A stretch of DNA of 25,187 nt from a virus. The notes below the pieces were generated by a model. The model saw only the letters and a list, made by a program, of their open reading frames with translations, made no database searches and was not told the origin of the DNA. The translations under genes and the position numbers were made by a program. This document shows, in pieces, positions 1 through 23,815 of the stretch; position 1 is the first letter of the stretch; the number at the start of each line of letters is the position of its first letter. The stretch is from IMG/VR virus record IMGVR_UViG_3300047562_000459, positions 1 to 25,187 of that record; one strand, given 5' to 3'.

Positions 1-196
1 AAAGATTGGCTACACGCACCACATGCTGCCTATTGATAAGGCCGTGAAGGTAGCCGAGATGTTATCTGATGCGGAAGCAATGGAGACTGACTACCACACT
101 GTGTGTGGTTACAAGTTCACCACTGATGCTTACCCCATTGAGATCAAGGTGTTATCAACCAGAGACCGTGGCGAGCTAGAGCTGCTACGTGATTAA
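1..196 (+). CDS. Hypothetical protein, C-terminal fragment
   Basis: An open frame enters from the left edge (first full codon at base 2) and ends with TAA at 194-196, giving the last 64 residues of a protein. The visible part ends in CGYKFTTDAYPIEIKV and then a charged LSTRDRGELELLRD tail. Its codon use matches the downstream genes and it lies just upstream of the AAA+ ATPase on the same strand, so it probably belongs to the same transcription unit. I recognise no family, and its start and full length lie outside the window. Confidence 0.6.
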   Translation, partial: KIGYTHHMLPIDKAVKVAEMLSDAEAMETDYHTVCGYKFTTDAYPIEIKVLSTRDRGELELLRD

Positions 197-252: not shown

Positions 253-1266
253 ATGCGTATCAAGCACATTGCACCACTCATCGCCAAGCGTTACCTCAGC
301 CCAGCCGTTCGCAAGCGTGCGCTGTTCCTTAAAGGCCCAGCAGGTATCGGCAAATCAGAGGCGGTGTTCCAAGCGTCGGACTTTCTATCATCACGCGTGG
401 ACGACTGGCGTGGCGTTATCGACATTCGTCTCAGCCAGATGCAGCCCGAGGACTTGCGCGGTATCCCAGCCGTAGATCACACCCACAAGATTGCAGAGTT
501 CTACCGGTTCAATACGTTACCGACAGATGGCGCGGGTATCATCTTCCTCGACGAGATCACATCGGCGGCACCAGCAATACAGGCAGCGTCCTACCAACTA
601 GTGCTGACACCACAGGACTTTGGCATCCCAGACACATGGATGGTGATGGCAGCAGGCAACAGGAAGTCTGATCGTGGTGTTACCTTCAGTATCGGTGGCC
701 CACTACTCAATCGGTTCTGTCAGGTCGATGTGGAGACTACCCTCGACGATGTGCGGGATCACGCGGTCAAACGTGGTATTCATGCGGCTATTACATCGTT
801 CTGGTCTGATCGACCGGACTACATCCACAAGTCTGAATTTACCGGCGGAGAAGTTAGACCGTTCCCTAGTCCACGTTCGTGGTTTGCGGTCAATGACATT
901 CTGCAACTCGACCTACCTGATGACGTGCGCGTGGAGTGCATCAAGGGTGACATCGGCGAAGAAGCAGGCATTGCGTTCGAGGCACACATGCGCGTGTTCC
1001 AAGAGACACCACGCATCGACGACATCTTAGAAGGCAAGGATGTACAGGTGCCCGATAAGATGAATGCGCTGTACTGTGTCGCCATGGGTCTCGTTGAGCG
1101 GATGGATAAGGACAACGCGTCTAACGTGTGGAAGTTCTTAGAGAAGTGCCCCGGTGAGATTCAGAATCTCACGTTCAAGCTGGCGTTCAAGCGCGACAAG
1201 TCCATAAGCAAATCAGCAGCGTTCACCAAGTGGGCGGCAGCTAACCAGTCGGCGTTCTCAGCATGA
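253..1266 (+). CDS. MoxR-type AAA+ ATPase
   Basis: This 337-residue protein is an AAA+ ATPase of the MoxR/dynein-like type. Residues 28-35 (GPAGIGKS) form Walker A, residues 96-101 (IIFLDE) form Walker B, and the following ITSAAPAIQAASYQ fits the MoxR/AAA_5 pattern. MVMAAGNRKSDRG at about 130-142 fits sensor 1. MoxR ATPases are known to work with VWA-domain partner proteins as chaperone-like machines, for example RavA with ViaA. A VWA/metallopeptidase gene lies 344 bp downstream on the same strand, so this is probably such a pair. ATG 253 is supported by a strong Shine-Dalgarno. The gene overlaps the next one by ATGA. The substrate is unknown. Confidence 0.88.
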   Translation: MRIKHIAPLIAKRYLSPAVRKRALFLKGPAGIGKSEAVFQASDFLSSRVDDWRGVIDIRLSQMQPEDLRGIPAVDHTHKIAEFYRFNTLPTDGAGIIFLDEITSAAPAIQAASYQLVLTPQDFGIPDTWMVMAAGNRKSDRGVTFSIGGPLLNRFCQVDVETTLDDVRDHAVKRGIHAAITSFWSDRPDYIHKSEFTGGEVRPFPSPRSWFAVNDILQLDLPDDVRVECIKGDIGEEAGIAFEAHMRVFQETPRIDDILEGKDVQVPDKMNALYCVAMGLVERMDKDNASNVWKFLEKCPGEIQNLTFKLAFKRDKSISKSAAFTKWAAANQSAFSA

Positions 1267-1583
1267 GGGCGCACATGGAGTGGAACGAGGGGGTGCAGAA
1301 GTATTGGCCCAACAACAAGCCTGTGTTTGAGAACAACGCAGGTCTGATGGGTGACCGCACATACGAGCGGGAACTGGTCAACTTCTACTGTGTAACTCCC
1401 TACATTAAATCGTACATGGGCAGTGCCTACGAGCGGTACGACCGCAAGTGGGTGATACAGATAGCTAGCATAATCGGTGCTGACAAAGTGGAGTACGACA
1501 GCAAAGAGGAAGCCATGCTAGCGTTCCGTGGACTAGTTGAACTGAGTGACGTGCTGGCTATACACAGCGACATACCATTTTAA
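1263..1583 (+). CDS. Hypothetical protein between the ATPase and VWA genes
   Basis: This 106-residue protein is rich in aromatic and charged residues and has no membrane segment or signal peptide. The start at 1263 is chosen because its ATG overlaps the ATPase stop codon as ATGA, implying translational coupling. An ATG at 1275 (MEWNEG) is an alternative. I recognise no domain. Its position between a MoxR ATPase and a VWA/metallopeptidase suggests an accessory role in that module, which is inference from location only. Its TAA stop codon is the first three bases of a 16-bp palindrome. Confidence 0.7.
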   Translation: MRAHMEWNEGVQKYWPNNKPVFENNAGLMGDRTYERELVNFYCVTPYIKSYMGSAYERYDRKWVIQIASIIGADKVEYDSKEEAMLAFRGLVELSDVLAIHSDIPF

Positions 1584-1596
1584 TCCCGTGGGATTA
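1581..1596. repeat. Palindrome TAATCCC-GT-GGGATTA, copy 1
   Basis: TAATCCC (1581-1587) is separated by two bases from its inverted copy GGGATTA (1590-1596). The first three bases are the stop codon of the 106-residue gene. The Shine-Dalgarno AGGAG of the VWA gene starts immediately after the second arm. A nearly identical element at 3160-3175 also begins with a stop codon. It could be an RNA hairpin affecting re-initiation, or a binding site for a dimeric DNA-binding protein. Confidence 0.7.
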
Positions 1597-1609
1597 AGGA
1601 GACTTACTG

Positions 1610-2842
1610 ATGACTTATTCATTTGAAGAAAAGCGACTCGACCTAGCTTACAGCAAGCTGGGTCTTAAAGAGCCATTCATCGCAGCCGTGATGAGCCGGA
1701 TAACGCGGGAAATTTCCCCCGCTGTACCGACAGCGGCGACCAACGGTGTGTGGGTTAAGTTCAACCCGACGTTTATGGCAGAGCAGACCGACGCCCAGTT
1801 GTTCGGCCTTCTTGTTCACGAGTCACTGCATGTTGTGCTGATGCACATGTGGCGACGTGAAGGGCGGGACATGAACCTGTGGAACTACGTCAACGACGCC
1901 ATCATCAACGCGTACTGTAGAGCACGAGGCTACATGTTGCCCGAGGGTGGTGTGTTTATCGACTGGGTTAACGAGGGCATGTCCTCTGAAGAAGTGTACG
2001 ACAAGGTGAAGAAAAACCCCCCGCCACCGCCACCACGACCCACCAAAGGTAACGGTGACACTCCGAGCGAGAACGACGGACAAGGCGACGGCAACTGCAA
2101 GGGCGACGCCAGCGACGGCGATGGGCAAGGCAGCGGCGACGCCAGCGGCGGCTCTGACTACCCCAAGGGTGGCTTTGGTAACTCTGGCGACATCGAGGAT
2201 GCACCTGACGAGGCGACGAAAGCTGACCTTGAGTCGGCGATACTGGCAGCGGCTAAGATGGCGAAAGAGTGTGGGCAAGGCAACGCGCTGATCGACCGCA
2301 TCATTGACAGCATAGGTAAACCCTCAGTGCCGTGGAGCGAGGTGCTGCGCATGATGATGTCCGAGACAGCACGAGACGACTACTCGATGGCACGACCACG
2401 CAGACGGTATGTATCTCAAGACTTGTATCTGGCATCGCTGCACAGCGAGACGCTAGGTGGATTGTTGGTGGGCTTCGACGTGTCGGGGTCTGTCACTCCC
2501 GAGGAGGCCAACCAGATTGCCGGTGAGATACGGGCCATATCCTACGATACCAACCCAGCGTTTGTTGAAGTTGTGTACTGTACGGATGTCATCACTAAAG
2601 TCGAGCGGTTCGACAACTTCGACGAGATAGAGCTGCGCCCAACAGGTACAGGCGGTACGCGGTTCAAGCCTGTGTTCGACCATCTCGAAAATTCAGAAGA
2701 CGACTACGTAGGTATGATCTACTTCACCGACATGTGCGGTGACTTGAACGAACTGATTGAGCCAGAGATACCTGTGATCTGGGCTGATACCTTCGGCAAA
2801 TCTGAAGCACCATTCGGTACGCAAGTCCGCGTACAACTATAA
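1610..2842 (+). CDS. VWA-domain protein with HExxH metallopeptidase-like domain
   Basis: This 410-residue protein has two domains. The N-terminal half resembles the putative metallopeptidase domain found before VWA-like domains (DUF2201 type): LLVHESLHVVLMH carries HExxH at H70-H74, followed by a VNDAIINAY segment that may complete the site. A low-complexity linker follows at about 134-200, with six prolines and then Gly/Asp/Ser-rich sequence. The C-terminal VWA-like domain has a MIDAS motif, D290-V-S-G-S294, plus a TGTGGT loop and YFTDMCGD, supplying the expected metal-coordinating Thr and Asp positions. AGGAG at 1597-1601 supports ATG 1610. With the upstream MoxR ATPase it forms a classic ATPase-VWA pair. 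Whether it is an active protease or only a metal-binding adaptor cannot be told from sequence. Confidence 0.85.
   Translation: MTYSFEEKRLDLAYSKLGLKEPFIAAVMSRITREISPAVPTAATNGVWVKFNPTFMAEQTDAQLFGLLVHESLHVVLMHMWRREGRDMNLWNYVNDAIINAYCRARGYMLPEGGVFIDWVNEGMSSEEVYDKVKKNPPPPPPRPTKGNGDTPSENDGQGDGNCKGDASDGDGQGSGDASGGSDYPKGGFGNSGDIEDAPDEATKADLESAILAAAKMAKECGQGNALIDRIIDSIGKPSVPWSEVLRMMMSETARDDYSMARPRRRYVSQDLYLASLHSETLGGLLVGFDVSGSVTPEEANQIAGEIRAISYDTNPAFVEVVYCTDVITKVERFDNFDEIELRPTGTGGTRFKPVFDHLENSEDDYVGMIYFTDMCGDLNELIEPEIPVIWADTFGKSEAPFGTQVRVQL
2102..2147 (+). repeat. Low-complexity linker repeat within the VWA gene
   Basis: The 13-mer GGCGACGCCAGCG occurs at 2102-2114 and again at 2135-2147, inside a GC-rich stretch encoding the Gly/Asp/Ser linker. 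This suggests the linker grew by short duplication. The same stretch gives long but spurious open frames on the minus strand. Confidence 0.6.
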
Positions 2843-2853
2843 GGGGTAAGACA

Positions 2854-3162
2854 ATGGATACCGACAACACAATTATCAACCGACTGTCCCGCTTCGAGCG
2901 GGACACCAAGACTCGCCTGACACGCATAGAGTCTAAACTTGTTCGCGGATTCGAGGAGCTGGGCATTAGTACTGATACTAACGACGACTGGCTAACCGTC
3001 GATGACGAGGCACGAATAGTCTATGTAGACACAATCGGTAGATCACTGATGGTGCTACTGGCTGACATGTCCCGTGCGGGGGCTACGCACTTTGGCGACC
3101 ACTACGAGGTTGTACACAAGGGCATCACCGTCGCAGTTGTTGAGCTGCGAAAAGTAATATAA
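2854..3162 (+). CDS. Small hypothetical protein after the VWA gene
   Basis: This 102-residue protein starts at ATG 2854 behind AAGGGG at 2841-2846, 11 bp after the VWA stop. Residues 1-35 are strongly charged and probably helical or coiled-coil (repeated R/E/D with leucines). The rest looks like a small alpha/beta domain ending in GITVAVVELRKVI. No known family is recognised. The tight spacing suggests co-expression with the ATPase-VWA module. Its TAA stop forms the first bases of the second 16-bp palindrome. Confidence 0.72.
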   Translation: MDTDNTIINRLSRFERDTKTRLTRIESKLVRGFEELGISTDTNDDWLTVDDEARIVYVDTIGRSLMVLLADMSRAGATHFGDHYEVVHKGITVAVVELRKVI

Positions 3163-3175
3163 TCCCATGGGATTA
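3160..3175. repeat. Palindrome TAATCCCATGGGATTA, copy 2
   Basis: This is a perfect 16-bp inverted repeat starting at the stop codon of the 102-residue gene. It matches copy 1 at 1581-1596 in 15 of 16 bases, and the A after the second arm is also shared. A perfect -10-like hexamer TATAAT (3158-3163) overlaps its left arm, but the best -35 candidate (TTGTTG at 3137-3142) is only 15 bp upstream, so promoter activity is doubtful. The Shine-Dalgarno GGAGAC of the next gene follows 11 bases after the palindrome. Confidence 0.72.
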
Positions 3176-3186
3176 ACTTGTTTATT
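3173..3186 (+). repeat. Leader 14-mer TTAACTTGTTTATT, copy 1
   Basis: This AT-rich 14-mer lies directly before the ribosome binding site GGAGAC of the 361-residue gene. An exact copy lies at 4807-4820, just before GGAGG of the microprotein gene. It may act as an A/U-rich translation enhancer or RNA processing site. Confidence 0.5.
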
Positions 3187-3197
3187 GGAGACTTATT

Positions 3198-4283
3198 ATG
3201 ACTAACATCCGAACTACTAAGCCTGTAACACTCGACCAAGACCAGATCAATAGATTCCTGTACGGAGTGACGACGCTGTACCGTGGGTACCGTCGTCAAA
3301 ATAACCCGTTCGCACACAACCGTAGCTACTTCGAGGATAACAAGCGCAAGCACGAGGCACATTTCGAAAAACTATCATCGGAATACCACGGCGGCGTAAT
3401 GCTAACGAAGGACTACACGGAATACTTCGACTGCAAAAACAGCATGGAAGAACTTGGGTTTATGGCACCTATCAAAGTGCGGCGTGTCATCAACGACCTA
3501 AAACTGCGTATGCCGTACCTTGAGTTCTACCCAACAGCCGATTCAAACTACAAATCAGTCACTGTGCTACACAAAGGCTGTGACTTCCCATCGGGCGAGC
3601 TAGAGTGGAATCCATACGAAACGCGCTACAAAATTCTGTCTCCCATGTGCAACGACATGCGCAATGGCGGGCACTATACTGCGGACGACGACCGAGCGGC
3701 ACAATTATGTCGCAAGTACTTTAGGATACGACCGCCCAACAGAATGGTGCCTTTTATAACATTGCATACAGCAGTGTCAGAGTTAGACTTCGACAAGCAT
3801 CTGCGGCAGCTACAGCGGCAGCAGCGCGAGCTTCAAAACGAGGCCATAGGAACTAACTTCGGTGGCAGAGAAATAGCCAATGAGTTGTTCTTGTTCTTGG
3901 AGGCGTACATCGACATAGTGCCGCCTCTCATACGAGACAAAATACTCAAATACCGTGAGACAACCGTAGAGTACACTGACTACTACGAGCTATCTAAGAT
4001 ACTGATGCACGTAAAGATGGTGGATGAGCAATCTGTCTACACGATGTGGAACAGAAGTCATACAATAAGCAACTTACACTCAAGTAATGTCAGATATGAT
4101 GAATTGTCACTCACGTTTACTGAGCCTACGTCACAAATGTCCGTAGACTTCATCACCAAAATAGGTCAACTGGCGTTAGAAGATATAGGTGTGTACGTGC
4201 CAGAAGTGGGTATGCGTATGGGCAACGGCGAGTACATCATCTACGGCGCGGACTTACCTGAAGCCCAAGAACCTATGGATTAG
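3198..4283 (+). CDS. Hypothetical protein, 361 residues
   Basis: I do not recognise this 361-residue soluble protein. ATG 3198 has GGAGAC at 3187-3192 as ribosome binding site. It is rich in Tyr, Arg and Asp. A Gln/Arg-rich helical stretch with the pattern LRQLQRQQRELQ lies at about residues 202-213. There is no signal peptide or clear membrane segment. The C-terminus is acidic (LPEAQEPMD). It follows the ATPase-VWA cluster in the same direction and is preceded by the second palindrome, so it may be a further member or a substrate of that module. A structural role cannot be excluded. Confidence 0.72.
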   Translation: MTNIRTTKPVTLDQDQINRFLYGVTTLYRGYRRQNNPFAHNRSYFEDNKRKHEAHFEKLSSEYHGGVMLTKDYTEYFDCKNSMEELGFMAPIKVRRVINDLKLRMPYLEFYPTADSNYKSVTVLHKGCDFPSGELEWNPYETRYKILSPMCNDMRNGGHYTADDDRAAQLCRKYFRIRPPNRMVPFITLHTAVSELDFDKHLRQLQRQQRELQNEAIGTNFGGREIANELFLFLEAYIDIVPPLIRDKILKYRETTVEYTDYYELSKILMHVKMVDEQSVYTMWNRSHTISNLHSSNVRYDELSLTFTEPTSQMSVDFITKIGQLALEDIGVYVPEVGMRMGNGEYIIYGADLPEAQEPMD

Positions 4284-4287
4284 TTGT

Positions 4288-4524
4288 ATGGCTATTATTC
4301 TTGTTATTGGCGAGAACGAGATAAAACTAGATTCACTAGACGAGTTCGATAATGTTCTCGACCAACTGCTAGAGTACAGAGCGTCGTTCATTGAAGAGTC
4401 TTATACGTATGATGATGGCAAGAGAATAATCGACGCCATACACGTACTAATAAACGAGTTCAATGGACTACAACTAGCCACTAAGGTTGCGTTAGTTTAT
4501 GGAGAAGGCTGTGTCTTACATTAA
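4288..4524 (+). CDS. Small acidic hypothetical protein
   Basis: This 78-residue acidic protein begins MAIILVIGENEIKLDSLDEF and looks like a small alpha/beta fold with helical segments. ATG 4288 lies 4 bp after the previous stop. The frame remains open upstream to 4189, but that would overlap the 361-residue gene by about 95 bp, so the shorter start is preferred. The ribosome binding site is weak, suggesting translational coupling. No family is recognised. Confidence 0.55.
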   Translation: MAIILVIGENEIKLDSLDEFDNVLDQLLEYRASFIEESYTYDDGKRIIDAIHVLINEFNGLQLATKVALVYGEGCVLH

Positions 4525-4705
4525 CTGGAAAGCTACTGACAGGGAAGTCACAGACATCGCGAGCGTCTACGAGGGTGCGCAGAATGTAGCGGACATGTTC
4601 AAAGAGCCTGTGTTTATCTACAGAGACCTGACTATACAACGTGAGTATTTAGCTCTAAAACAACGCGATTATTTGATTGTCGATACAGTATATCCCAGCA
4701 GATAG
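4499..4705 (+). CDS. Small hypothetical protein overlapping its upstream neighbour
   Basis: This 68-residue frame starts at ATG 4499, inside the last 26 bases of the preceding gene, and ends 7 bp before a sigma70-like promoter. The start has only a weak ribosome binding site. It contains VSYINWKATDREVTDIASVY and a C-terminal YLIVDTVYPS segment. The family is unknown. It is probably the last gene of the left transcription unit. It is kept because no alternative gene covers this stretch, but the support is modest. Confidence 0.5.
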   Translation: MEKAVSYINWKATDREVTDIASVYEGAQNVADMFKEPVFIYRDLTIQREYLALKQRDYLIVDTVYPSR

Positions 4706-4711
4706 CAACAC

Positions 4712-4739
4712 TTGATATTACCATCTGTGGGCGTATACT
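4712..4739 (+). promoter_or_regulatory. Sigma70-like promoter
   Basis: TTGATA (4712-4717) and TATACT (4734-4739) are separated by 16 bp. Each hexamer differs from consensus at one base. The promoter lies in the 128-bp gap between the left gene cluster and the microprotein gene, pointing rightward, with a start expected near 4746. It is the best promoter seen in the window and would allow host RNA polymerase to transcribe the replication module. Confidence 0.65.
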
Positions 4740-4745
4740 GAAATT

Positions 4746-4808
4746 GATCCCTCTGCGCGGGGTCACACTCCTAAAAGTATTTGCCCCGTCTAGCGCCGGG
4801 GCTTTTTT
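4746..4808 (+). ncRNA. Candidate attenuator leader or short RNA
   Basis: Transcription from the 4712 promoter would produce about 60 nucleotides before reaching an intrinsic terminator. A first hairpin can form between GATCCC (4746-4751) and GGGGTC (4759-4764). CGGGG at 4758-4762 can instead pair with CCCCG at 4784-4788, which is the left arm of the terminator, so a terminator/antiterminator switch is possible. No matching known riboswitch or T-box class was recognised. A stable short RNA is the alternative reading. This is inference from pairing done by hand. Confidence 0.4.
4783..4808 (+). terminator. Intrinsic terminator before the microprotein gene
   Basis: The stem GCCCCG (4783-4788) pairs with CGGGGC (4797-4802) across an 8-base loop and is followed by six T residues (4803-4808). 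It would end the left gene cluster and also sits just downstream of the 4712 promoter. Confidence 0.8.
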
Positions 4809-4820
4809 AACTTGTTTATT
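4807..4820 (+). repeat. Leader 14-mer TTAACTTGTTTATT, copy 2
   Basis: This is an exact copy of the 14-mer at 3173-3186. It overlaps the end of the terminator T-tract and is followed by ACGGAGG, the ribosome binding site of the 28-residue gene. Confidence 0.5.
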
Positions 4821-4833
4821 TACGGAGGAACCT

Positions 4834-4920
4834 ATGAACTGGTTCAAACATGAGGGCTTACATGCCCTAGCTTTTTTGTGCTTCATAATCATCATTTACT
4901 CGTTTGTGGCGGAGATATAG
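4834..4920 (+). CDS. 28-residue single-pass membrane microprotein
   Basis: ATG 4834 is preceded by a strong ribosome binding site, GGAGG at 4824-4828 with a 5-base spacer, and the frame ends with TAG at 4918-4920, directly abutting the next ATG at 4921. The product starts MNWFKHEG. Residues 9-26 (LHALAFLCFIIIIYSFVA) form one hydrophobic segment long enough to cross a membrane, and the chain ends Glu-Ile. It is the first gene after the terminator. Very small phage membrane proteins can inhibit host functions or act in lysis, but no function can be assigned. It is below the size cutoff of most gene callers. Confidence 0.65.
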   Translation: MNWFKHEGLHALAFLCFIIIIYSFVAEI

Positions 4921-5160
4921 ATGCCAGCTAAGAAAAAAGACGCGATCAACCCGTCGCACTATAAGAAGGGTGACATCGAGTGCATCGACGCAATGGTCGC
5001 TGCCTACGGTGAAGAAGAGGTGCGTATCTACGCGAAGATAGCGGCGTTTAAGTACGGCTGGCGGCGTGGAGACAAGGACGAAGAAGCCCAAGAGGTAAGA
5101 AAGCAGATGTGGTATCTGCGACGCTCACTCGGTGAAGATCCAAGGGGGGAACATGGTTGA
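4921..5160 (+). CDS. DUF3310 family protein
   Basis: This 79-residue protein carries the DUF3310 signature near its N-terminus, INPSHYKKGDIECIDAM at about residues 9-25, followed by the usual KIAAFKYGWRRGDKDEEAQEVRKQMWYL helical part. DUF3310 occurs widely in phages, usually as a small stand-alone protein and sometimes within larger ones such as T7 gp1.7, a nucleotide kinase. This short form has no visible kinase motif and its function is not established. It abuts the microprotein gene and overlaps the following gene by 8 bp, so it lies in an early or replication operon. Confidence 0.85.
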   Translation: MPAKKKDAINPSHYKKGDIECIDAMVAAYGEEEVRIYAKIAAFKYGWRRGDKDEEAQEVRKQMWYLRRSLGEDPRGEHG

Positions 5161-5416
5161 GCTAGGTATAGGCAAGAAGCGCATCCATGTGAACCAGCAT
5201 GTGATACGCAGGAATAATAAAGTAGCGGAAGGTGGCGAGCTTGAGCCACCGATAACCGTCAAGCACAAGGGCGGCAATACTTACGCCAAAGGCGTCATCA
5301 TCTATGGCGCATCTAAAGTTGTGTACTCCCCTGACAAGCCACTGTCTTGTGGTGCAAAGGTGTGGATCGAAACCGACAGCGAAGTTGCATTGGAGGGAGT
5401 ACGTGAGAAGTCCTAA
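5153..5416 (+). CDS. Conserved small phage protein, unknown function
   Basis: This 87-residue protein has the pattern IHVNQHVIRRN, then ITVKHKGGNTYAKGVIIYG and KPLSCGAKVWIET. From memory this resembles a small unnamed phage protein often found near replication genes. The start is set at ATG 5153 because AAGGGGGG lies at 5142-5149, whereas the frame open from GTG 5132 has no good ribosome binding site. It looks beta-rich and soluble. It overlaps the DUF3310 gene by 8 bp and the polymerase gene by 14 bp, indicating tight co-translation. Confidence 0.78.
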   Translation: MVELGIGKKRIHVNQHVIRRNNKVAEGGELEPPITVKHKGGNTYAKGVIIYGASKVVYSPDKPLSCGAKVWIETDSEVALEGVREKS

Positions 5417-7265
5417 AATAAAAACCGTATTCATAGATTTTGAAACGTATTACGACCAAGAGTACTCGTTGAGCAAACTACAGACCGATGCGTATGTGCT
5501 GGACGACAGGTATCAAACTATCATGGTCGGCTACAAGATCGGCGACGAGCCGACTAGTGCGCTGGTTGGCAACGAACAGCAGATCAAACAAAAACTAGCT
5601 AACTTGTGTGACTGGGACGAGGTGGCAGTGTGCTGCCACAACACGCTGTTCGACGGGTTTATTCTGACGCAACGATATGGTGTGTACCCGCGTTTGTGGA
5701 AAGACACGCAAGCTATGTCTCGCATGTTGCATCCGTACCTAAAGTCTCACTCGCTGGCGAACATGGCTAAATTCTATAAGCTGCAAGCCAAGGGCGACGC
5801 CGTGCACAACATGAAAAGCAAGCGCCTAGAAGACTTTACCAAAGACGAGTTCATGGACTATGTAAACTACTGTTTGGGCGACGTGGACATCTGTGCCGGA
5901 CTCCATAACGAGATGATCCAGTTCACGCCAGTGCTCAACCAGATACTTATCGACATGACCATACGCATGTTTACTGAGCCTAAGTTCGTCGGCGACATCG
6001 ACATGATGAAAGACTTGTACGCAAAAGAAGTGCAGCGTAAAGAAGGTCTTTTAATGGCGGCTAATTCAGATCCCAAAACGATAGCGTCGAGTGCCAAGTT
6101 CGCAGAAAAATTACGTGAGCTAGGTGTGTTCCCTCCGACAAAGATCAGCCCGCGCACAGGCAAAACAACTTACGCGTTTGCCAAAACCGACAAAGAGTTC
6201 CTAGCGTTGCAGGATCATCCTGACGCAGAAGTGCAAGCGTTGGTCGCTGCGCGTTTGGGTACCAAGACAACCATCGCCGAGACACGCGCAGAGCGTTTTA
6301 TACAGATGGCTGAGCGTGGCCCACTGCCTGTATACCTCAACTATTGGGGCGCTAAAACGACTGGCAGGTACAGCGGTGGCAACCAAGTTAACTGGCAGAA
6401 CCTACCCGCACGAGGCATATCTGCGGGTTTGCGCAACGCATTGAAAGCACCTAAAGGTCACAGCGTGCTAGTGGGTGACTCGTCCAACATAGAACTGCGG
6501 ACGGTGATGGCCCTCGCCGGACAGAAAGATGTTATTGAGAAGTTGGAGAAAGGCGTAGACATGTACTGCGACTTTGCCAGCAAGCTGTTTGGCAGAGATA
6601 TCACTAGAGCTGACAAGTCCGAACGGTTCTTAGGTAAGACAGCTATGCTGGGCCTACAGTATGGTGCTGGCGCTGCACGGTTTATGGAGATGGCGAACAT
6701 GCAGGGGCGAGACTTCGGCGTGAACATAACGCTAGACAGAGCCTATGAAATCGTCGAGCTGTACCGCAACATACACTATAAAGTCGTGAAGCTATGGCAA
6801 CACTGCGAGCATTCCGTACTGCCCAACATCCATAAAGAAAACTGGTTAGAGAACGTCGATGTTAACGGCTGGTTCATTACGCAAAGCGGTGGCTTCGGTA
6901 GGCCGGGAGAGCCGGGAGTTGTGTACCACAACTTACGGTATGAATCAGACAATGAAGGTAGCGGCTGGGTATACACGATGGGTCGCAACGAGTCCGTGCG
7001 AATCTTCGGCCCGAAAGTTGTAGAAAATCTTTGCCAACATGCTGCCATGCACATTGTTATGTGGCAGACTGCTAGGATACACCGGAAATATCCGGTTAAG
7101 CTGTCAGTGCACGACGAAGCTGTATGTATAGTGCCTGATGACCAACTTGTTGAAGCGCGAGCCTACATGGAAGAATGTTTGAACCTAACGCCACCTTGGT
7201 GTCGTGGGTTTATCCCTGTCGATTGTGAGACAGAAGTAGGCGCGTCGTATGGGGAAGCTAAATGA
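5403..7265 (+). CDS. Family A DNA polymerase with 3'-5' exonuclease
   Basis: This 620-residue protein is the replicative DNA polymerase. The exonuclease domain shows FIDFET (D12, E14), CCHNTLFDG and YCLGDVD. The polymerase domain shows motif A GDSSNIELR (D359), motif B RADKSERFLGKTAMLGLQYG at about 407-426 and motif C SVHDEA (H570, D571, E572). All the expected catalytic acids are present. The start is GTG 5403, six bases after a perfect GGAGG at 5392-5396. The longer open frame from ATG 5304 would run through the preceding gene. No 5'-3' nuclease domain is present. It overlaps the next gene by ATGA. It lies in a module that resembles the polymerase/VRR-NUC/SNF2 cassettes of many phages. Confidence 0.93.
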   Translation: MRSPKIKTVFIDFETYYDQEYSLSKLQTDAYVLDDRYQTIMVGYKIGDEPTSALVGNEQQIKQKLANLCDWDEVAVCCHNTLFDGFILTQRYGVYPRLWKDTQAMSRMLHPYLKSHSLANMAKFYKLQAKGDAVHNMKSKRLEDFTKDEFMDYVNYCLGDVDICAGLHNEMIQFTPVLNQILIDMTIRMFTEPKFVGDIDMMKDLYAKEVQRKEGLLMAANSDPKTIASSAKFAEKLRELGVFPPTKISPRTGKTTYAFAKTDKEFLALQDHPDAEVQALVAARLGTKTTIAETRAERFIQMAERGPLPVYLNYWGAKTTGRYSGGNQVNWQNLPARGISAGLRNALKAPKGHSVLVGDSSNIELRTVMALAGQKDVIEKLEKGVDMYCDFASKLFGRDITRADKSERFLGKTAMLGLQYGAGAARFMEMANMQGRDFGVNITLDRAYEIVELYRNIHYKVVKLWQHCEHSVLPNIHKENWLENVDVNGWFITQSGGFGRPGEPGVVYHNLRYESDNEGSGWVYTMGRNESVRIFGPKVVENLCQHAAMHIVMWQTARIHRKYPVKLSVHDEAVCIVPDDQLVEARAYMEECLNLTPPWCRGFIPVDCETEVGASYGEAK

Positions 7266-7948
7266 GCAAAATGCCGCTGTCGTACAGCAGACTAAGTACA
7301 TTTGAGAACTGCCAGCAACAATTTGATTACTTATACGTGTCCAAGACTGTCCAATCCGTAGGTAGCGATGCTACTGAGTACGGGGATAGAGTACACAAAC
7401 TGTTAGAAGACTATGGCAAGGGTGAGCTTGACGAAGAAAATCTCACCGAAGAAGGCAAACTGTCTCTAAAGAAGTGGGGCAACATCGTCGATACGATTAT
7501 GTCCCGTGGAGGCGATAAGTACTTCGAGCACCAGATGGCGATCAACGAGAACCTAGAGCCTGTTGGCTGGTTCGATAGCGACGTGTTCTTTCGTTCGATT
7601 GCTGACGTGCTAATAGTTGACGGCGATACGGCTTATTGTTTAGATTACAAAACGGGCAAGGTTAGAGAGTCACCAACCCAGTTGCAGTTGTTCGCGGCGA
7701 TGGTGTTCTGGCATTTCCCAGAAGTACAGAAGGTTAAGACCTCGTTTATTTGGTTACGGTTTAATCAGACAACAAACACGACGTATGAACGTCGTTACTT
7801 AGATTCGCTGTGGGGCGCATTGAAGCCTCGCATCGACAAGGTGCATGAGACTGTTGAGCTTGGTGTGTTTGAAGCTAAGCCCAGTGGTCTATGTCCATGG
7901 TGTCCCGCGCAGGACATTTGCCCAGACGCAAGGAGAAAAAGAAGGTGA
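7262..7948 (+). CDS. PD-(D/E)XK exonuclease, Cas4/RecB-like
   Basis: This 228-residue nuclease begins MSKMPLSYSRLSTFENC. The core shows D115 in SIADVLIVDGD and D128-Y-K130 in CLDYKTGK, the PD-(D/E)XK pattern. One Cys near the N-terminus (C17) and three at the C-terminus (C211, C214, C220 in CPWCPAQDIC) match the iron-sulfur cluster arrangement of Cas4 and AddB-type nucleases. Related genes (DUF2800 and Cas4-like) sit beside the polymerase in many phages and probably process DNA ends in recombination-linked replication. No CRISPR array or cas1 is nearby, so a CRISPR role is not supported. ATGA coupling joins it to the polymerase. Confidence 0.87.
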   Translation: MSKMPLSYSRLSTFENCQQQFDYLYVSKTVQSVGSDATEYGDRVHKLLEDYGKGELDEENLTEEGKLSLKKWGNIVDTIMSRGGDKYFEHQMAINENLEPVGWFDSDVFFRSIADVLIVDGDTAYCLDYKTGKVRESPTQLQLFAAMVFWHFPEVQKVKTSFIWLRFNQTTNTTYERRYLDSLWGALKPRIDKVHETVELGVFEAKPSGLCPWCPAQDICPDARRKRR

Positions 7949-8250
7949 AAAACGAGGGGGATGTTAAGAAAGCTGTCCGCAAAGTATTAGATAGCATCGA
8001 CAAGTGCTACTACTTCATGCCGCCAGCTAACGGTTATGGTAGGTCGGGTATCCCCGACTTTATCGGCCAAGTAAACGGTTACTTCTTTGGTATAGAAACC
8101 AAGTTTGGCAACAACCAACCGACTGCGAATCAGACACGCGAGATAGGTCGGATACTGCAAAGTGGTGGTCAGTGCTGGATTGTCCGCGAAGGCATATCAC
8201 TGACTGGCTGGGAAAATGAGTTTCGGGGGTGGGCTGCACTGTGCTCGTAA
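7945..8250 (+). CDS. VRR-NUC domain nuclease
   Basis: This is a 101-residue stand-alone VRR-NUC nuclease, a PD-(D/E)XK subfamily linked to cleavage of branched DNA. Key residues are E4, D38 in GRSGIPDF, E51-T-K53 in GIETKFG and Q63. The start is set at GTG 7945, which overlaps the previous stop as GTGA and has AAGGAG at 7930-7935. An ATG at 7891 would need a 58-base overlap with the previous gene. Its end overlaps the helicase start. VRR-NUC plus SNF2 helicase is a recurrent phage gene pair. Confidence 0.88.
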   Translation: MKNEGDVKKAVRKVLDSIDKCYYFMPPANGYGRSGIPDFIGQVNGYFFGIETKFGNNQPTANQTREIGRILQSGGQCWIVREGISLTGWENEFRGWAALCS

Positions 8251-9794
8251 TTGAGGAACAGCGTAAGGTTGTATTGAACACGTCGGCCAATGACAACATT
8301 GCCGAAGTCATACCTCATGCCAAGCGTATGAGTAAAGACGGGCAAGACTTGTTGGTTGTACCTCACGGGGTGCAGGAGTCGATGGTGCTGAGAAACATGG
8401 GTGTGTCTGTACCGCCACCTATAAGGCACTACTACGACTATCCGGCGCGTTTCAAACCGATGGATCATCAGACGGCTACCGCCGAGTTCCTGTCGGGCCA
8501 TAAACGCGCGCTGTGCCTCAATGCCCCCGGCACTGGTAAAACGATAAGTTCGATCTGGGCTGCTGATTTTTTGCTCACTGTCGGTGAAGCTAAGAAGGTA
8601 CTAATTATAGCCCCGCTATCTACCCTCAAAGAAGTGTGGGGTAGAGAGCTAAAGATCCACTTGCCGCACAGGTCTTTTCAGATCATCACTGGCACTAGGC
8701 AGAAGCGCCTACAACTACTGGGAACACCGGGGTTACAGTACGCCATCATTAACCACGACGGCTTCACTGGACTGTCCGATGTTATGAAGGACTTCGACGT
8801 AGTTATCTACGACGAGGCCACCGCGCTAAAGACACCAAGTTCTAGGCGGTACAGGGTATTTTATCAGTGGGTGCGCGACCACAACCCGTGGCTATGGCTG
8901 CTTACAGGCACGCCCATATCGCAAAACCCGACCGATGCGTGGACGCTGGCGCGCCTTGTTGAAAGCCAACATGTCGCCAAAAGCTACACATCTTTTAAAG
9001 AATTAGTGATGCAGAAGGTTTCTCAGTTCCGATGGATACCCAGAGAGAACGCACTGGAAACTTGTAAGAAGGTTCTTCAGCCGTCGATTCGGTTCTCGCT
9101 GGATGAGTGTAAAGACTTGCCGGACACCAACTTTGTTAACCGCAAGTGCGAGCTAACTAGTCAGCAGAAGAAAGCCTTTAAAGAGATGCAGGACAAGGCT
9201 GTGACTACGTTCAGCGAGGGGCAGGTAACCGCCGCAAACACTGCCGTGATGCTGTCCAAACTTTTGCAAATATGCTGCGGTGTGGTGTATAGTGATGACA
9301 CGTCGATTGAAGTTGATGCCAAGCATCGCTACGACGCACTGACTGAATTACTGGATGAGATCGGTGGCAAGACCATCGTGTTTGTACCGCTTAAAGGCGT
9401 GCAGCACTGGTTGATGAAGAAGCTACAAAAAGATGGTTACGACATCGCGCTAGTGAATGGTGATGTTAGCAAGAACGCCCGTGACCAAATCTTTAATGAC
9501 TTCCAGCACACTGATAAGCCACAGATATTGCTGGCACATCCGAAGGTGGCTGCGCATGGGCTTACGCTCACAGCGGCTAAAGATATTATCTGGTACGCCC
9601 CAATCTATTCGTTGGAGCAGTACGAGCAAGCGAATGCGCGCATACGTCGGTTGAGTACCGAGGGAAAGACGACGGTGTGGCATGTGATGGCTACTAAGTT
9701 CGAGCGAGAACTTTATAGTCGATTAAGGCACAAGAAAGATACGCTCACTGAGTTCCTCGATCTTGTGCAAGGTATCAACCATGACGATGACTGA
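8241..9794 (+). CDS. SNF2-type DEAD/H helicase
   Basis: This 517-residue superfamily 2 helicase of the SNF2 class has Walker A NAPGTGKT (K100), motif II YDEAT (D191, E192), motif III LLTGTPISQNP and a C-terminal helicase domain with motif VI QANARIRRLSTEGKTTVWHVMA. Such phage proteins probably remodel or translocate on dsDNA at branched or blocked sites together with the VRR-NUC nuclease. GTG 8241 is preferred because GGGGGTGGG (8225-8233) lies at suitable spacing. GTG 8229 in the same frame is possible and would add four residues. Confidence 0.9.
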   Translation: MLVIEEQRKVVLNTSANDNIAEVIPHAKRMSKDGQDLLVVPHGVQESMVLRNMGVSVPPPIRHYYDYPARFKPMDHQTATAEFLSGHKRALCLNAPGTGKTISSIWAADFLLTVGEAKKVLIIAPLSTLKEVWGRELKIHLPHRSFQIITGTRQKRLQLLGTPGLQYAIINHDGFTGLSDVMKDFDVVIYDEATALKTPSSRRYRVFYQWVRDHNPWLWLLTGTPISQNPTDAWTLARLVESQHVAKSYTSFKELVMQKVSQFRWIPRENALETCKKVLQPSIRFSLDECKDLPDTNFVNRKCELTSQQKKAFKEMQDKAVTTFSEGQVTAANTAVMLSKLLQICCGVVYSDDTSIEVDAKHRYDALTELLDEIGGKTIVFVPLKGVQHWLMKKLQKDGYDIALVNGDVSKNARDQIFNDFQHTDKPQILLAHPKVAAHGLTLTAAKDIIWYAPIYSLEQYEQANARIRRLSTEGKTTVWHVMATKFERELYSRLRHKKDTLTEFLDLVQGINHDDD

Positions 9795-14593: not shown

Positions 14594-17500
14594 TTAATCC
14601 CTACCGTACAACTTGTCGATCTCTTCACGCATTTCCGTGTTGAGGCTGTCGATCTCTTTGTACAACCTATCGAAGTCTGGAGCACCAGACCGCATCTCTT
14701 CTCGCTTAGCGCGTGATACGGCAATGCCGTAGTCCCGCTTGAGCTGCTTTTCTTCGATCCGCTTGTACATCATCTCTTCAGTAACGTTGGGATCGTAGAA
14801 CTTGAGACCAAGGGCACGGGCAGCGAACAAGCTGGTCATATCCCTACCACTAATCGTCTGCTCTCCAGTTGTGTAGTCGATCGCTTTGCCGATGTTGCGA
14901 GTGCTAACCATGGGTGGCAAGAACATATCTAGCATTAAGCCAGCGTTCGTCAGCGTGACATCAAAAGCAGAATCAGTAGGCTCATTCAACTTCTTGCCAG
15001 TATATGTGTTGGTGTTCAAGAACATACCTAGGATAGACACTAGTGGGCCGTTGGGAGTGAAGCCTCCGGGCCAGCCCTCATACCCCATAAACCCAGCAGG
15101 GGTGCTGCGCATGGTAGACGAGAGCGGTATGTAATCACCTAAGCGGAAGTACACAGGGTTTTGATCGTCGCCCAAGAAGGGCAAGCGAATCATGGCGTTC
15201 GGCCCCATGTTGAAGAACAACTTATCGTTGTACAGCTTACCTAGCTTGTTGCGATCTTCTTCGTCTTCCCCAGCCATAGCCGCCATAGCAGCATCAAGTA
15301 AGGCGTAAGAAGTAAGGACGTTGGCTACCATCCAAGGGCGAGTCAGCGCGATGCGTCCAAGCATGGGTATAGCGGCGTATGTCCAAGAGGCGAACGGCAT
15401 AACCGTCTGCCGCGCATACTGCAAATACTTAGCGTCGATGTCGTAGTTCAAGAAGGCATCACGACCAAAATCACCTGCTTGTTTCCACTGGTCATCGGTA
15501 AGCTGCTGACCGTTATTGCCTGCCTGAAGCTCGCCAGCACGGTTCATAAATGCGGCCAAGCGGAACACGTTATCTTCAGCGGCGTACAGCTCCAACATCT
15601 TCTTGTCTTTGTCGGCTAGCCAGTTGCCAACAGACTTAGCGGTATCTGACTCAAGCTGCAACAACTGAGCTACACGCCCCGGCACGCCTTTATCATCCAT
15701 CTCTGGCTTGATCTTGTCGCGCATGGCGCGATAGCGTTCTTTCTTAACTTCTGACGCAGAGAAGTTGCCTAGTAGAGCACCTGATTTCTCGAACTCTTTT
15801 AGGATACGCAGATCGGCGTCGGTCAGGGCGTCTGGGTTACGCGCAGCCTTATACATGACATCGGCAGCTCGGCGTAAAGTCTTAAATGTGATCCCGTGCA
15901 TCATCATAATAGTGACGTTAGAAGCCACGTTAGTGATGTGTGTGCCGGGGTTACGGGTTGTCTTAGCCAGCTTGAATTGACGTAGTGCGTCGTTGTACGT
16001 ACGCATAACACCTTTATCGAACAGGGTATGCTTGCTAGACATATCTACAATCGCGGCGTACACAGGGCCGTGCACCACTTTGCCAGCCAGATCGCCCCAT
16101 ACTTTGATGGGCAAGCCTTGGTCTTTGAGCGCCTGAGTATCTGGAATACGAACAAGTGTACCGGTGCGACGTAACTCACCTGCGACAAGTCCAGATTTAA
16201 GCTCCGAAGCACTGGCTACGGCTACTCGCTCTGGGTCAAACGGCCTAACTGTTTCGCCGTCTGCTGCCGTCTGCTCAAGGTACTCGTTGTATTGATCCAC
16301 GCTGTCGAAGACAACCGGCACCTCGCCACGCTCAAACGCAGCTTGGTCAAACTCACCATTGGCGTCGCGGCCTAGGTTAGCTAGCCCACTAAAGAACCGC
16401 TTAGACGAGTAGTAGGTACCAAGTGTGTTAGCCGTGTTCAAGATAGCAATGCCGATTTGGTCGGCTGCTTCCATCTTATTGCCGTCTTTTAGCGCGTCAG
16501 CTATGGTCTTGTTGGATGTGAACTGGAACTTACCTCCGGCTACGTCCTTGCCAGACCACTTTACGTTCATGTCGATTGGAAACGATTCGCCAGCCTCGTT
16601 GTCGATGACGACGCCACCCGCAGCGTTAGCTATATCTTCACGGACAAACCCTATGGTCTTGCCATGGTCAGAGCGTCCAGCGACAGCGCCAACTACTCGG
16701 TAGTAAACAGCATCAGAGTCAAACACCGCACCGGCTTGATCCAAGCCAAGCCACTCTGGATTATCGCTCTTTTCTAAATCCTGCTTCCGGCCACCAAAAA
16801 TTTGACTGAGCTTGCGCTGTCCTACAGAGCCGCTACCGATGTCGCTCTCTTTCTCCACGAAGATTAGCGACTCGCTGAACTTGCGCCCGTCGAAGAACTG
16901 CTTATAAGACTCAGGTAGTGCGGTCTTAAATGTCTCAAACGCTTCCAACAAGTTGTCCGCACGAGTCTTCATCAGCTTGCTTTCTGGAACACCGTTGAGC
17001 GCGGTCTTGTCGCCATCGAGATAAGCAATAAACTTCTGTGCAGATGCCAAGTCACGCTGGATTAGGTCTCGCAGGTGGTTAGACACCAGCTCGGCTAGCT
17101 GCACACCAGTGTGCTTCTCGTTCTTAAAGGTCTGGAAGACTTTCTTTAGTTGCTCGCCAAAAGCCAGCATGGGGTTGAAACCACGCAGTACTTTCTCTGA
17201 GCCGGGGAACGCCTTAATCACAGCCTCGCGCACTTCGGACGCTAGCGTCTTCAGCTTGCTAGGCATATCAGCGGGCAGAGCCTTACCCAGCAAAGTAAAC
17301 AAAGGCTTGGTTAGGCCGTAAGTCCCTTGCTTACCATACTCCTGCAAGTCAACATCAACTTGTTGCTGTGTCGATGGTGCTGCTCCCCCACGGACGGACT
17401 GCTTGAGAACCTTGCCCCTTCTGCTAGGCTTGCCACCTTCTTTACGAGCTTTGTTCAATAACGACACTGTTGAGTTAAGAATGTCGTTAGCTGCCGTGTT

Positions 17501-20500
17501 CTCTACACCTAGGAACTTAGATACTAGTTCAGTGAGGTACCGCCACACGTTATTAACGGCGTCTAAAAACGTTTTAGACTCGGCGTTGCGCGCTTTTACC
17601 TTAGTAGTTAGCTCTTTAAACTCAGACAGCGTGTTACCATAGGAGATAAGCTCAAGCACAGCATCAAGCTCAGCTTGGGGAGCGAAAGTGCCGTCTTTCC
17701 TCTGCTGGCCGCGCACGTTCTGCAACGTGTTAACAACGTCTATAGCAGTCTGTTTATCTTGCGCAGACATACTAGTAACTTTGTCGAGACGCCCGGCTTG
17801 TATGAAATCAACTATATCTGTGAGCGTATTTTTAAGCAGAGCGACTTCTGGAGCCGTTTGGTTCCGATATACGTAGCCTTGCAGGGCGACGTGTAGGGAC
17901 TCGTGCACGATTTCTTCTGGCGTGGTAGCGCGCCGCAAGTAGACTGTATCGTCTTTAGGATCGTAGTAGCTGTTCGCTTCGTCGGTAAACTTCACTGACG
18001 CATCTTGCTGACGCTCACGCAGAGTATCAATCAACATCTTGCGTAATGCCAACGTACCTACGCGCGGCGTGCCACGTCCCGGAGCACCTACAAGGTTGAG
18101 GATACCGCGCAGTCCTTTCTCTTTACCGAACTTTTTGGTTCTACCTTTGCCCTCAGTAGCGGCGGTCTCTAAATCAGCGATAAAGCCAGCGTCAACTTCT
18201 TCACTAGATAACCGCTTTTGGCGACCTTCTGGAGCAGTCTGTGTAACCCCCTCTAACGCGCCATCTTTATACGCAGCCCAAGCATTAGATAGGACTACAT
18301 CAACTTTATTTAGGTATTGCCCGCGAGTATCAGTCCTAGCTTTTTCGCCGAACAGTTCTTTCATGTACGGCCTGATCTTGCCATCTACTTTGCTGGACTT
18401 ATTCTTGTCCTTTTGCGCAGCTAGTTTGTTTATGGCTATCATCGCGTCTACAGTATTTGGGCTACCAGCTACGCGAACAAGTTCGTCCATAGCTGCCTTA
18501 GTTTCTGCCGCTAAAGCCTGTAGTTGCTCGGCGTTAGCGCCAGCCATGTCCACAGCGCCTTGGTCAGACAACCCCTCTGCTTGCTTAGCGTCAACTAGAT
18601 TCTGCCTAGCATTATTGTATGCTCTGGCAGCTACAACAGCTTTTTTGAACGCTTCGTGAACCTCAGTCATTTTTGCGCTGAAGGTATCCGTGGTGTCTGC
18701 GTCTCTAGCAGGGGAACCTTGTTGGCGGACTATAGGCTTAGGGTTAGGCTTAGTAGAGCGCATCATCTCTACCACGCCCTTCAACACTTGCTGGGGCAAC
18801 GATATATCGCCGCCAACCTTTCCGACTTTAGAGGAAACTTCGGCTTTCAAGACCTGCGCTACGTCAGAGTCATCCACCATAGCCGCTTCTTCAACTTCTT
18901 CCTCGGTGACAAGCTCTTCCTCGGGTGCCGTGGTCTGCACTACTTCGCCGCGTGACTCAGCAACAGGCTCGGCTACAGGCTCAGCAACAGGCTCGGCTAC
19001 AGGCTCAGCAACAGGCTCGGCTACAGGTTCGGCTACAGGCTCAACGATTGGAGAAGTTGGCTCTACTACAGGCGCTTGCTCTTGCTCGGTAGCAACGGTA
19101 GTTACTGGCGCAGCTTCTTCTACGGGGGTAGCTGCAAGGCTGGCTTCTCTGTCTAGCTGCGCTTGCTCTACTTGTGCCTGCCCTTGTTCTGGGGTCAACT
19201 TGCCTTTGCGTACACGCACCAACGCTTTGCGAGCGGCTTTACCACGAGCATCTATTTCTAAAGTATCACGCAACTTGTCGATGTGATACTCGAGCGCAAA
19301 CAACTGAGCACCTTGTTCGCTGTACTCGTTACGTAAATCAAACTCCATAGAGGCGATAGCGATCTCAAGGTCTCTACGCTCTTCGGCGGTCTCTTGGGCG
19401 CGTTGCTCCGCTTGCTTACGCAGCTTAGCGGCTTCTCTGCCACGCGTGCGCTTGCCTATATCTGGGGATGATTCTGCTTCTAACTTGGCAAGGCGCTCTC
19501 TGGCAGCGAACAACTCTTCGCTTTCTGGTATTGACTGGTTAAGTTCAGTCAACTTCTCCTGTGCAGCTTTAAGCTCAAGCCTTGTAGCCTCTCGCTCGCG
19601 CGAGTTCATGCGCTGCTTAGCCAGCTTCTCTAACTCTTCGAGACCGTTGGTGTCCGCTGCTATAGCTTCGACTTGTTCGTCGAGTTGTTCTTCCGTGAGG
19701 ATAGGCTTGCTTCGTAGGCGGCGCTGCTCCTCGATGTACTGCTCTTTGTAGCGGAGGATGTCCTCTGGCGTAGATATATCTTTCTCGGTAGGCTGAGCAT
19801 CTTTAGGTTTGAACGCAGCGTTGACCACACCAGAGAAGCCGCCGCCGACAAGTGCACCGGAAACCACGGCGTTTAGACGACGCGATGCAATTTCTTCTGG
19901 CGACAAGTCGTCGCGCATACCGATTTCTAGTTCGGTTTGGAATGCTTCTGTTGCGCCCTCTGCAACAGCCCCACCAACAAACGCCCTGCCACCACGACCA
20001 ATAGCAGTGGTGGGTACAGTTGTAGTAGCGCCACCCCCTGCCAGATTTATTTCTCTAGTAGCAGCTACACCGGGAGCGCCTAAGCCACGAACAGCGCGGC
20101 CAAGAGCGAAGGGTACGGCGGCTTCAGCCGCTGCGTAAGGGATACCGCCAAGTAGTGCGCCAGCAGCGTCTCTCTCGCCACCCTCTACTGACTCGTTGTA
20201 CAGAGAGCCGACACCATAAGTATAACCAGCAGCTAGGGAGCCTACGCCAGCGCCCAAACCTAACCCACCAGTGGCAGCGCCAGCAGCGAGAATACCGCCC
20301 ATAATGGGCACTTGTTGCCCCACCTGCCCGGCGAAATAAGAGCCAAAATCGCCTATACCCTCTACGTCTTCGATACGTTGGGGTACTTCTGGGTTAATGG
20401 CTAACGCAGCTTGCGCTTGCTGGGAACGGACTTCTGACTCAAGAGTATTTCGTAGGCCAGTAGCACCCAATGCTTCTGCAACAGCGGCACCGGCACCTGC

Positions 20501-23393: not shown

Positions 23394-23815
23394 TATGTCC
23401 TCCAACGAGCGCCGCTTTCGGGCGTCATAACTAATACCATCATATCCGCACCGGGAGCGCCGTCCTTCATCACAAATTCTTCCTGCCAGCCAAGGTGCTT
23501 GTCGAACTCGATAATGTGGGGTTCATTAGTCGGCACCATGCCAGTTAACCGCTTTAGTTTACACTTATTGAAAGCATAATCATACGCTGCCTGCAACAAC
23601 TTAATCGTAGCTTTACCGGGCTTGTCGATGGCTATATGGCATGTGGCGTTAGCACCGTTGTAGTTGTTGAATACGATCCCAGCCAGTATGGTTGAACCCC
23701 GCATGACACCTAGGGCGTAGAAGTCTCCCCAGCTACCGGTTTGGCCTACTTTGGCCGCTACCCACGCGCCGATAAGGTCTTTACGGTCAACTACTACGAC
23801 GGTGGATTCGGCCAT
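23393..23815 (-). CDS. GNAT-like acetyltransferase family protein
   Basis: This 140-residue protein has a GNAT-like layout: a beta-rich N-terminal half (YALGVMRGSTILAGIVFNNYNG), an alpha segment KATIKLLQAAYDYAFNKCKLKRLTGMVP typical of the acetyl-CoA binding helix and strand, and FDKHLGWQEEFVMKDG near the C-terminus. Such genes occur often in the structural operons of podovirus-like phages, and their substrate is unknown. The classical Q/RxxGxG/A motif is not clear here, so activity is uncertain. The start overlaps the preceding gene by 22 bp, with GAGG upstream of the ATG. Confidence 0.72.
   Translation of the reverse strand: MAESTVVVVDRKDLIGAWVAAKVGQTGSWGDFYALGVMRGSTILAGIVFNNYNGANATCHIAIDKPGKATIKLLQAAYDYAFNKCKLKRLTGMVPTNEPHIIEFDKHLGWQEEFVMKDGAPGADMMVLVMTPESGARWRT

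Follow-up and report, generated by a model that had tools for sequence, protein, structure and literature searches.

MoxR-type AAA+ ATPases work in bacteria with partner proteins that carry a VWA domain and its metal ion-dependent adhesion site (MIDAS), as in RavA-ViaA, NorQ-NorD and CbbQ-CbbO. In NorQD, the VWA domain sits as a plug in the MoxR ring, its MIDAS holds an acidic patch of the target, and the N-terminal domain of NorD is thought to give specificity or to act as a stator (PMC9976466). The pairing is already known in phages: gp24 and gp25 of N4 belong to the core gene set of N4-like phages and are carried on middle transcripts in N4 (PMC4193335; PMC2784036), and group 2.2 jumbo phages carry a MoxR ATPase paired with a vWA domain fused to an N-terminal metallopeptidase, for which a part in virion assembly has been proposed (Iyer et al. 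2021, PMC7824862). Here we describe such a pair in a 25,187-nt stretch of viral DNA (IMG/VR record IMGVR_UViG_3300047562_000459, positions 1-25,187; an incomplete fragment, hereafter the window). The pair itself belongs to this known kind; what is novel is a DUF3150-like partner found in its clade, the sharing of that triad with plasmids, a companion protein of 102 residues, and an array of palindromes.

The ATPase and its metallopeptidase-VWA partner

Five open reading frames (ORFs) lie on the plus strand between positions 253 and 4283, and their coordinates and motif positions agree with an initial annotation made without database searches (the sequence-only reading). The first is predicted to encode an intact MoxR AAA+ ATPase. 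Its Walker A (G28-S35, GPAGIGKS) and Walker B (I96-E101, IIFLDE) motifs, which the sequence-only reading had called intact, contain residues that do not vary in an alignment of 17 phage homologues extending to phages at 24-25% identity, in which G31, G33, K34, D100, E101, N136, R154 and R208 were invariant. From general knowledge of AAA+ motifs, we take N136 to be sensor 1, R154 the Arg finger and R208 sensor 2. The match to Pfam AAA_5 was just above threshold (23.2 bits, cut-off 22), and profile matches in the PDB were to Midasin and CbbQ/NorQ. In one relative, phage Pollock (L070, 4193-5981), the N4 gp24-like ATPase gene appears to be interrupted by a gene for an HNH homing endonuclease.

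The 410-residue protein matched two Pfam families: PF13203 (DUF2201_N, "putative metallopeptidase"; E 2.3e-35, 123 bits, cut-off 23.2) and PF09967 (DUF2201, a VWA family; E 2.8e-16, 60 bits, cut-off 26.4). We aligned 24 sequences, including those of the N4-like phage Pollock, CRP-7 and phage G. Invariant residues in the peptidase half were H70, E71, H74, H79, N92, D96 and N100, and those of the MIDAS were D290, S292, S294, T350 and D374, so that both motifs of the two-domain protein anticipated from the sequence (HExxH at H70-H74 and D290-x-S-x-S294) are strictly kept. Because D96 is invariant and suitably positioned, it could serve as the third metal ligand. Of 67 IMG/VR relatives, 65 retain HExxH, the remaining two being cut short before that part, and all 67 retain DxSxS. 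No full-length relative that we examined had lost either motif, even at approximately 25-30% identity.

We also examined an AlphaFold2 model of the protein (predicted local distance difference test, pLDDT, 73; predicted template modelling score, pTM, 0.51). Foldseek matched the VWA half to VWA/MIDAS domains (5a8j and 8ql1; an ArnB-paralogue VWA2 and the Midasin MIDAS) and the N-terminal half to selecase (4qhi, probability 1.00, E 0.018), SPRTN (6mdx, probability 0.93, E 0.071) and jannalysin (4jix). Probabilities were mostly high and E-values modest, from 0.002 to 0.3. The model supports a predicted gluzincin-like metallopeptidase fold around the HExxH motif; the sequence-only reading had named the absence of such a fold around H70-H74 as refuting it, and this outcome was not obtained. 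The sequence-only reading had also likened the pair to RavA-ViaA. As a functional analogy this stands, but the protein is not of ViaA type: only DUF2201_N and DUF2201 scored above cut-off in Pfam, and, unlike in RavA-ViaA, NorQ-NorD and CbbQ-CbbO, the N-terminal half is a predicted metallopeptidase. We rejected the label "HNH endonuclease" attached to phrog_1314, since the window protein consists of DUF2201_N and DUF2201; the same label is found on many RefSeq phage records.

Homologues of the metallopeptidase-VWA protein occurred in 563 phage records and those of the ATPase in 749, and the coupling of the two genes is strict. In distant IMG/VR loci recovered with the ATPase family (approximately 32-37% identity), a VWA gene lay nearby in 59 of 67; of the other eight, seven have at most 200 nt of downstream sequence and one has 1.1 kb. 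HExxH and DxSxS were intact in all full-length VWA copies of this distant group. The N4 genes gp24 and gp25 (PHROGs 1297 and 1314) belong to the same two families in the same order, but at approximately 25-31% identity, and neither the DUF3150-like gene nor the 102-residue companion was found in the stretch of N4 that we read. The conservation of genes and motifs thus points to a real and apparently functional MoxR-VWA/peptidase module, as first proposed.

A DUF3150-like third component shared with plasmids

A family of approximately 293 residues is encoded upstream of the ATPase in nearly all of the contigs compared. It aligned with a protein of phage MinM2 annotated as DUF3150 (hhalign, 99.5%), whose gene is flanked in that phage by those of the ATPase and the VWA protein. 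Because only 5 of 14 family members are matched by Pfam DUF3150 (E 0.01; 22.1 bits for the first, against a cut-off of 24.9) and the best-known member falls below cut-off, we call the family DUF3150-like. Its gene was upstream of the ATPase, at a distance of 93-1679 nt, in all 44 distinct clade loci whose upstream sequence exceeds 2.2 kb, and it also accompanied the pair in three divergent phage contigs (L160, L176 and L202). It is not visible in the window because the left edge falls within the small gene separating it from the ATPase in relatives; in this phage it would lie to the left of base 1. The DUF3150-like gene appears to be a more general partner of the pair than the three small genes packed around it.

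The 14-member alignment was too diverse for a scan of the sequence collection, and we used a single plasmid protein as the query instead. Plasmids of Cupriavidus (pRK1-1), Paraburkholderia (pPHS1_P) and Rhodovastum (RHOApb) carry the order ATPase-DUF3150-VWA; at a Simplicispira locus the ATPase lies approximately 3 kb upstream; and ten further loci of the Cupriavidus/Ralstonia group all carry the triad with HExxH and MIDAS intact. The triad, with both motifs intact, was present in 14 of 14 plasmid or bacterial loci examined, mostly contiguous, and it occurs on conjugative and other large plasmids. The three families are those of the phage clade, whereas the gene order differs, being DUF3150-small-ATPase-small-VWA-102 residues in the clade. 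The DUF3150-like partner in this clade and the triad common to phages and plasmids are new here. The part of the jumbo-phage report available to us mentions neither a third partner nor plasmid copies (PMC7824862), and the term DUF3150 was absent from the literature searched, though papers beyond that set may hold it.

Small companion genes

The proteins of 106, 102 and 361 residues had no significant match in Pfam or PHROG, in keeping with the sequence-only reading, which had proposed all three as candidate adaptors or substrates without a recognised family. The candidates proved unequal, and only the 102-residue protein is a constant companion, within this clade. Its gene lay 3' of the VWA gene in 66 of the 67 relatives found through the VWA protein, and loci seeded with its own family had the VWA gene upstream in 78 of 80; the exceptions, one and two respectively, are cut by contig ends. 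The sequence-only reading would have been refuted had the small genes never accompanied the pair in related phages, and for the 102-residue gene the opposite holds. The gap between the two genes is nearly constant (median -10 nt), and that to polA has a median of 2974 nt and ranges from 1.0 to 5.4 kb. The protein is predicted to form a long helix (residues 3-35) followed by a beta-beta-alpha-beta-beta domain. We found no homologue in the isolated phages or bacterial genomes searched, in PHROGs or Pfam, or among PDB folds, and one match in BFVD, an uncultured-phage protein 57% identical. Because it was not found in the isolates and bacterial genomes searched, we regard it as a clade-specific accessory.

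The 106-residue gene, whose ATG overlaps the ATPase stop codon, is fast-evolving and dispensable, a positional gene and not an equal candidate. In relatives the ATPase-VWA interval is nearly always filled by a small, rapidly diverging gene, but in L059-L061 that gene is missing and only 66 nt separate the ATPase and VWA genes. The window protein matched this positional family weakly (E 0.01), the best score among all window ORFs, and its C-terminus, DIPF, is common to the nearest relatives. This protein and its counterparts in L002, L003, L005, L006 and L034 end in [DE][IV]PF-COOH, DVPF included, which resembles the C-terminal tail of bacterial single-stranded DNA-binding protein. In L041, L044, L049, L062, L063, L064 and L067 the small gene appears to be tandemly duplicated.

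Homologues of the 361-residue gene were confined to the nearest subclade; we rejected it as a general partner, and it probably lies outside the core machine. We likewise rejected homology of the 102-residue protein, the positional small gene or the 361-residue protein with the small neighbours of the pair in the distant group (hhalign probability at most 2.3%).

An array of palindromes in the putative early region

The module shares its strand and region with replication and early genes of the window, and the structural genes are on the opposite strand; from this position and gene content we infer that the region is early. Two 16-bp palindromes, TAATCCC(G/A)TGGGATTA, stand at the junctions of the 106-residue gene with the VWA gene and of the 102-residue gene with the 361-residue gene. 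In both, the TAA doubles as the stop codon of the preceding gene, and a ribosome-binding site comes next. An operator-like palindrome, TAATCCCRYGGGATTA, extends across the clade (125 of 226 loci). Arms of TAATCCC account for 244 of the 331 unique perfect 7-2-7 palindromes in clade loci, with near-random flanks. Thirteen of 15 long contigs carry 6-11 copies, the reversed control pattern giving none, and the sites listed fall close together in a single region of each contig. Only 15 of 221 sites fell inside ORFs of at least 100 residues, compared with 53% of random positions, and most are approximately 25 nt upstream of a start. A palindrome preceded the ATPase gene in 29 of 40 loci, the VWA gene in 32 of 48 and polA in 0 of 60; none was found on four plasmid stretches.

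Some relatives lacking TAATCCCRYGGGATTA have symmetric variants, TATTCCCRYGGGAATA in L034, L120, L124 and L128 and TAATTTTGCAAAATTA in L056. Because both arms change together and the form is uniform within a genome, a dimeric DNA-binding regulator is suggested, and we read the palindrome as a putative operator. An RNA hairpin is less likely because the arms show no compensatory changes within a genome, and single hairpin energies were unremarkable (z -0.9 and -2.2); a sequence-specific RNA-binding protein may nonetheless act at these sites. Our search for a regulator gene identified none. A family of approximately 200 residues, without a recognised domain, is encoded near the start of the array in 13 contigs (L333, 6315-7019, and relatives) and is a possible candidate.

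The closest parallel is the start-associated sequences of cluster K mycobacteriophages, which are also short, clade-specific repeats upstream of many gene starts (PMC3203893). Those sequences are 13 bp, asymmetric and thought to act in translation initiation (PMC3203893), whereas the element described here is a 16-bp perfect or near-perfect palindrome whose symmetric variants belong to sister subclades. The palindrome array of this clade's early region is new here, and provides a way into early gene control in this uncultivated group of phages.

A proposed role and its alternatives

On balance we lean towards a MoxR machine of phages and plasmids with a DUF3150-like third part and, in this clade, a 102-residue accessory, acting from the early region and probably on a host or defence target. 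On the model of NorQ-NorD, the motor would be a hexameric ring of the ATPase on which the VWA domain docks, and the MIDAS metal would grip an acidic patch of the target complex. ATP hydrolysis would distort the target, and the tethered gluzincin-like domain could cut an exposed segment. The DUF3150-like protein, encoded just upstream, would be the third part; the 102-residue protein could be a clade-specific adaptor or cofactor of the VWA subunit; and the repeated dimeric operator would mark the gene junctions of the module. A host complex or defence is the more probable target soon after infection, and not the virion, because the module lies in the early region with the operator array.

One alternative, which we consider unlikely though not negligible, is virion assembly or maturation, in which the MoxR-VWA pair would remodel a structural complex and the peptidase would trim structural proteins. 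This was proposed for the same domain architecture in jumbo phages (PMC7824862), and phage RPP1 has four virion genes near its gp24/gp25 homologues (PMC4193335). The viral MoxR-VWA pair of Acidianus two-tailed virus, p618 and p892, offers an analogy in tail development: the two proteins interact with one another, and p618 also with virion proteins. There, however, p618 is itself a virion component, and the system lacks the peptidase domain. Plasmids make no virions, so the presence of the triad on plasmids weakens a purely virion-assembly role; moreover, the module lies with replication and early genes on the strand opposite the structural genes, together with the early-region palindromes, and the N4 pair is middle-transcribed (PMC4193335). 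An intracellular target is favoured by the plasmid copies, the location of the module alongside replication genes and opposite the structural genes, the palindromes and N4 middle transcription, though none of these is proof.

It is about equally doubtful, in our view, that the machine is a chaperone only, its HExxH half binding metal without cutting. Such a role would be compatible with any of the targets considered and has a parallel in the specificity or stator function suggested for the N-terminal domain of NorD (PMC9976466). Yet H70, E71, H74 and D96 do not vary in the phage alignment and the plasmid copies keep HExxH, and a pure scaffold would need neither. A role in DNA replication or DNA-protein crosslinks, the machine stripping or cleaving DNA-bound proteins for a phage and plasmid replisome, is improbable. 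In its favour are the SPRTN match, the genes nearby for a DNA polymerase, nucleases, a helicase and a primase (the order ATPase-...-VWA-...-DNA polymerase-exonuclease-VRR nuclease-SNF2 helicase recurs in Rhizobium phage RHph_TM3_14A) and, at 35 of the 67 distant loci, an upstream exonuclease gene. Against it, the fold match, which came alongside selecase and jannalysin, is one that small gluzincins give in general, the palindromes do not reach as far as polA, and no DNA-binding domain was recognised.

Several observations weigh against the intracellular three-part machine that we favour. The triad is not universal: the DUF3150-like protein was not found near the pair in the stretches of N4, CRP-7, Pollock and RHph_TM3_14A that we read, nor in those around the pair in 64 of 67 distant-group loci. 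The argument from plasmids to phages assumes the same type of target in both. Confidence in the model of the VWA protein is modest, with no Foldseek match below E 0.001. Distance matrices gave no support for specific co-evolution of the 102-residue protein with the VWA protein, the correlation not exceeding that with DNA polymerase (partial r 0.29 versus 0.49).

A more specific proposal is that the triad is an establishment machine of mobile elements, common to phages and conjugative plasmids, which unfolds and cuts a host or defence complex early after entry, the copy in this clade belonging to an early regulon under a phage-encoded dimeric regulator with co-diverged operators. We offer this tentatively, as a possibility that we would not expect to hold in full. 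For the core genes of the N4 gp24/gp25 type, the present comparison adds a defined candidate three-part machine whose third gene links the phage and plasmid versions, and the retention of peptidase and MIDAS sites in full-length copies, together with the plasmid link, gives reason to seek an intracellular rather than a virion target.

Gene layout and other observations in the window

Features of the module are listed in Table 1.

Table 1. Features at the left end of the window
Feature	Position	Strand	Evidence
3' end of small gene, ~76-residue family of the clade	2..196	+	Family hidden Markov model from relatives against window peptide, 1.8e-11; gene order in relatives
MoxR-type AAA+ ATPase, 337 residues	253..1266	+	AAA_5; phrog_1297, 1.7e-70; Walker A/B, sensors and Arg finger invariant; PDB profile matches
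106-residue gene of the ATPase-VWA interval, fast-evolving positional family	1263..1583	+	ATG overlaps ATPase stop; family match E 0.01; C-termini
Operator-like palindrome TAATCCCGTGGGATTA; TAA is the stop codon of the 106-residue gene	1581..1596		Sequence
410-residue protein: predicted gluzincin-like metallopeptidase domain, acidic/Gly-rich linker, VWA with full MIDAS	1610..2842	+	PF13203, PF09967, alignments, AlphaFold2 model, Foldseek
102-residue clade-specific companion without known family	2854..3162	+	Loci of relatives; predicted structure
Second palindrome TAATCCCATGGGATTA; TAA is the stop codon of the 102-residue gene	3160..3175		Sequence
361-residue gene, homologues in nearest subclade only	3198..4283	+	Loci of relatives

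By polymerase and layout, the closest isolate is Rhizobium phage RHph_TM3_14A (61 kb; L138), which matches window positions 253-9794 in the order ATPase, three small genes, metallopeptidase, polymerase, exonuclease, VRR nuclease and SNF2 helicase. The DNA polymerase of the window is nearest to those of Rhizobium RHph_TM and Pseudomonas KPP25-like phages. None of the RNA polymerases that mark the Schitoviridae, or N4-like phages (the giant virion RNA polymerase, RNAP1/RNAP2), was recognised in this incomplete 25-kb fragment. No window gene matched the PADLOC models of anti-phage defence.

Two genes on the minus strand deserve mention. An ORF of 2038 residues (14594-20710), without a significant Pfam family, contains an internal HESLH at residue 936 and a stretch of EPVA repeats; its size recalls the 2198-residue putative polyvalent protein of phage PTXU04, which was required for infection in CRISPRi-ART (PMC11879866). 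A virion protein (22356-23405) carries a C-terminal Peptidase_S74 (intramolecular chaperone) domain (E 9e-6).

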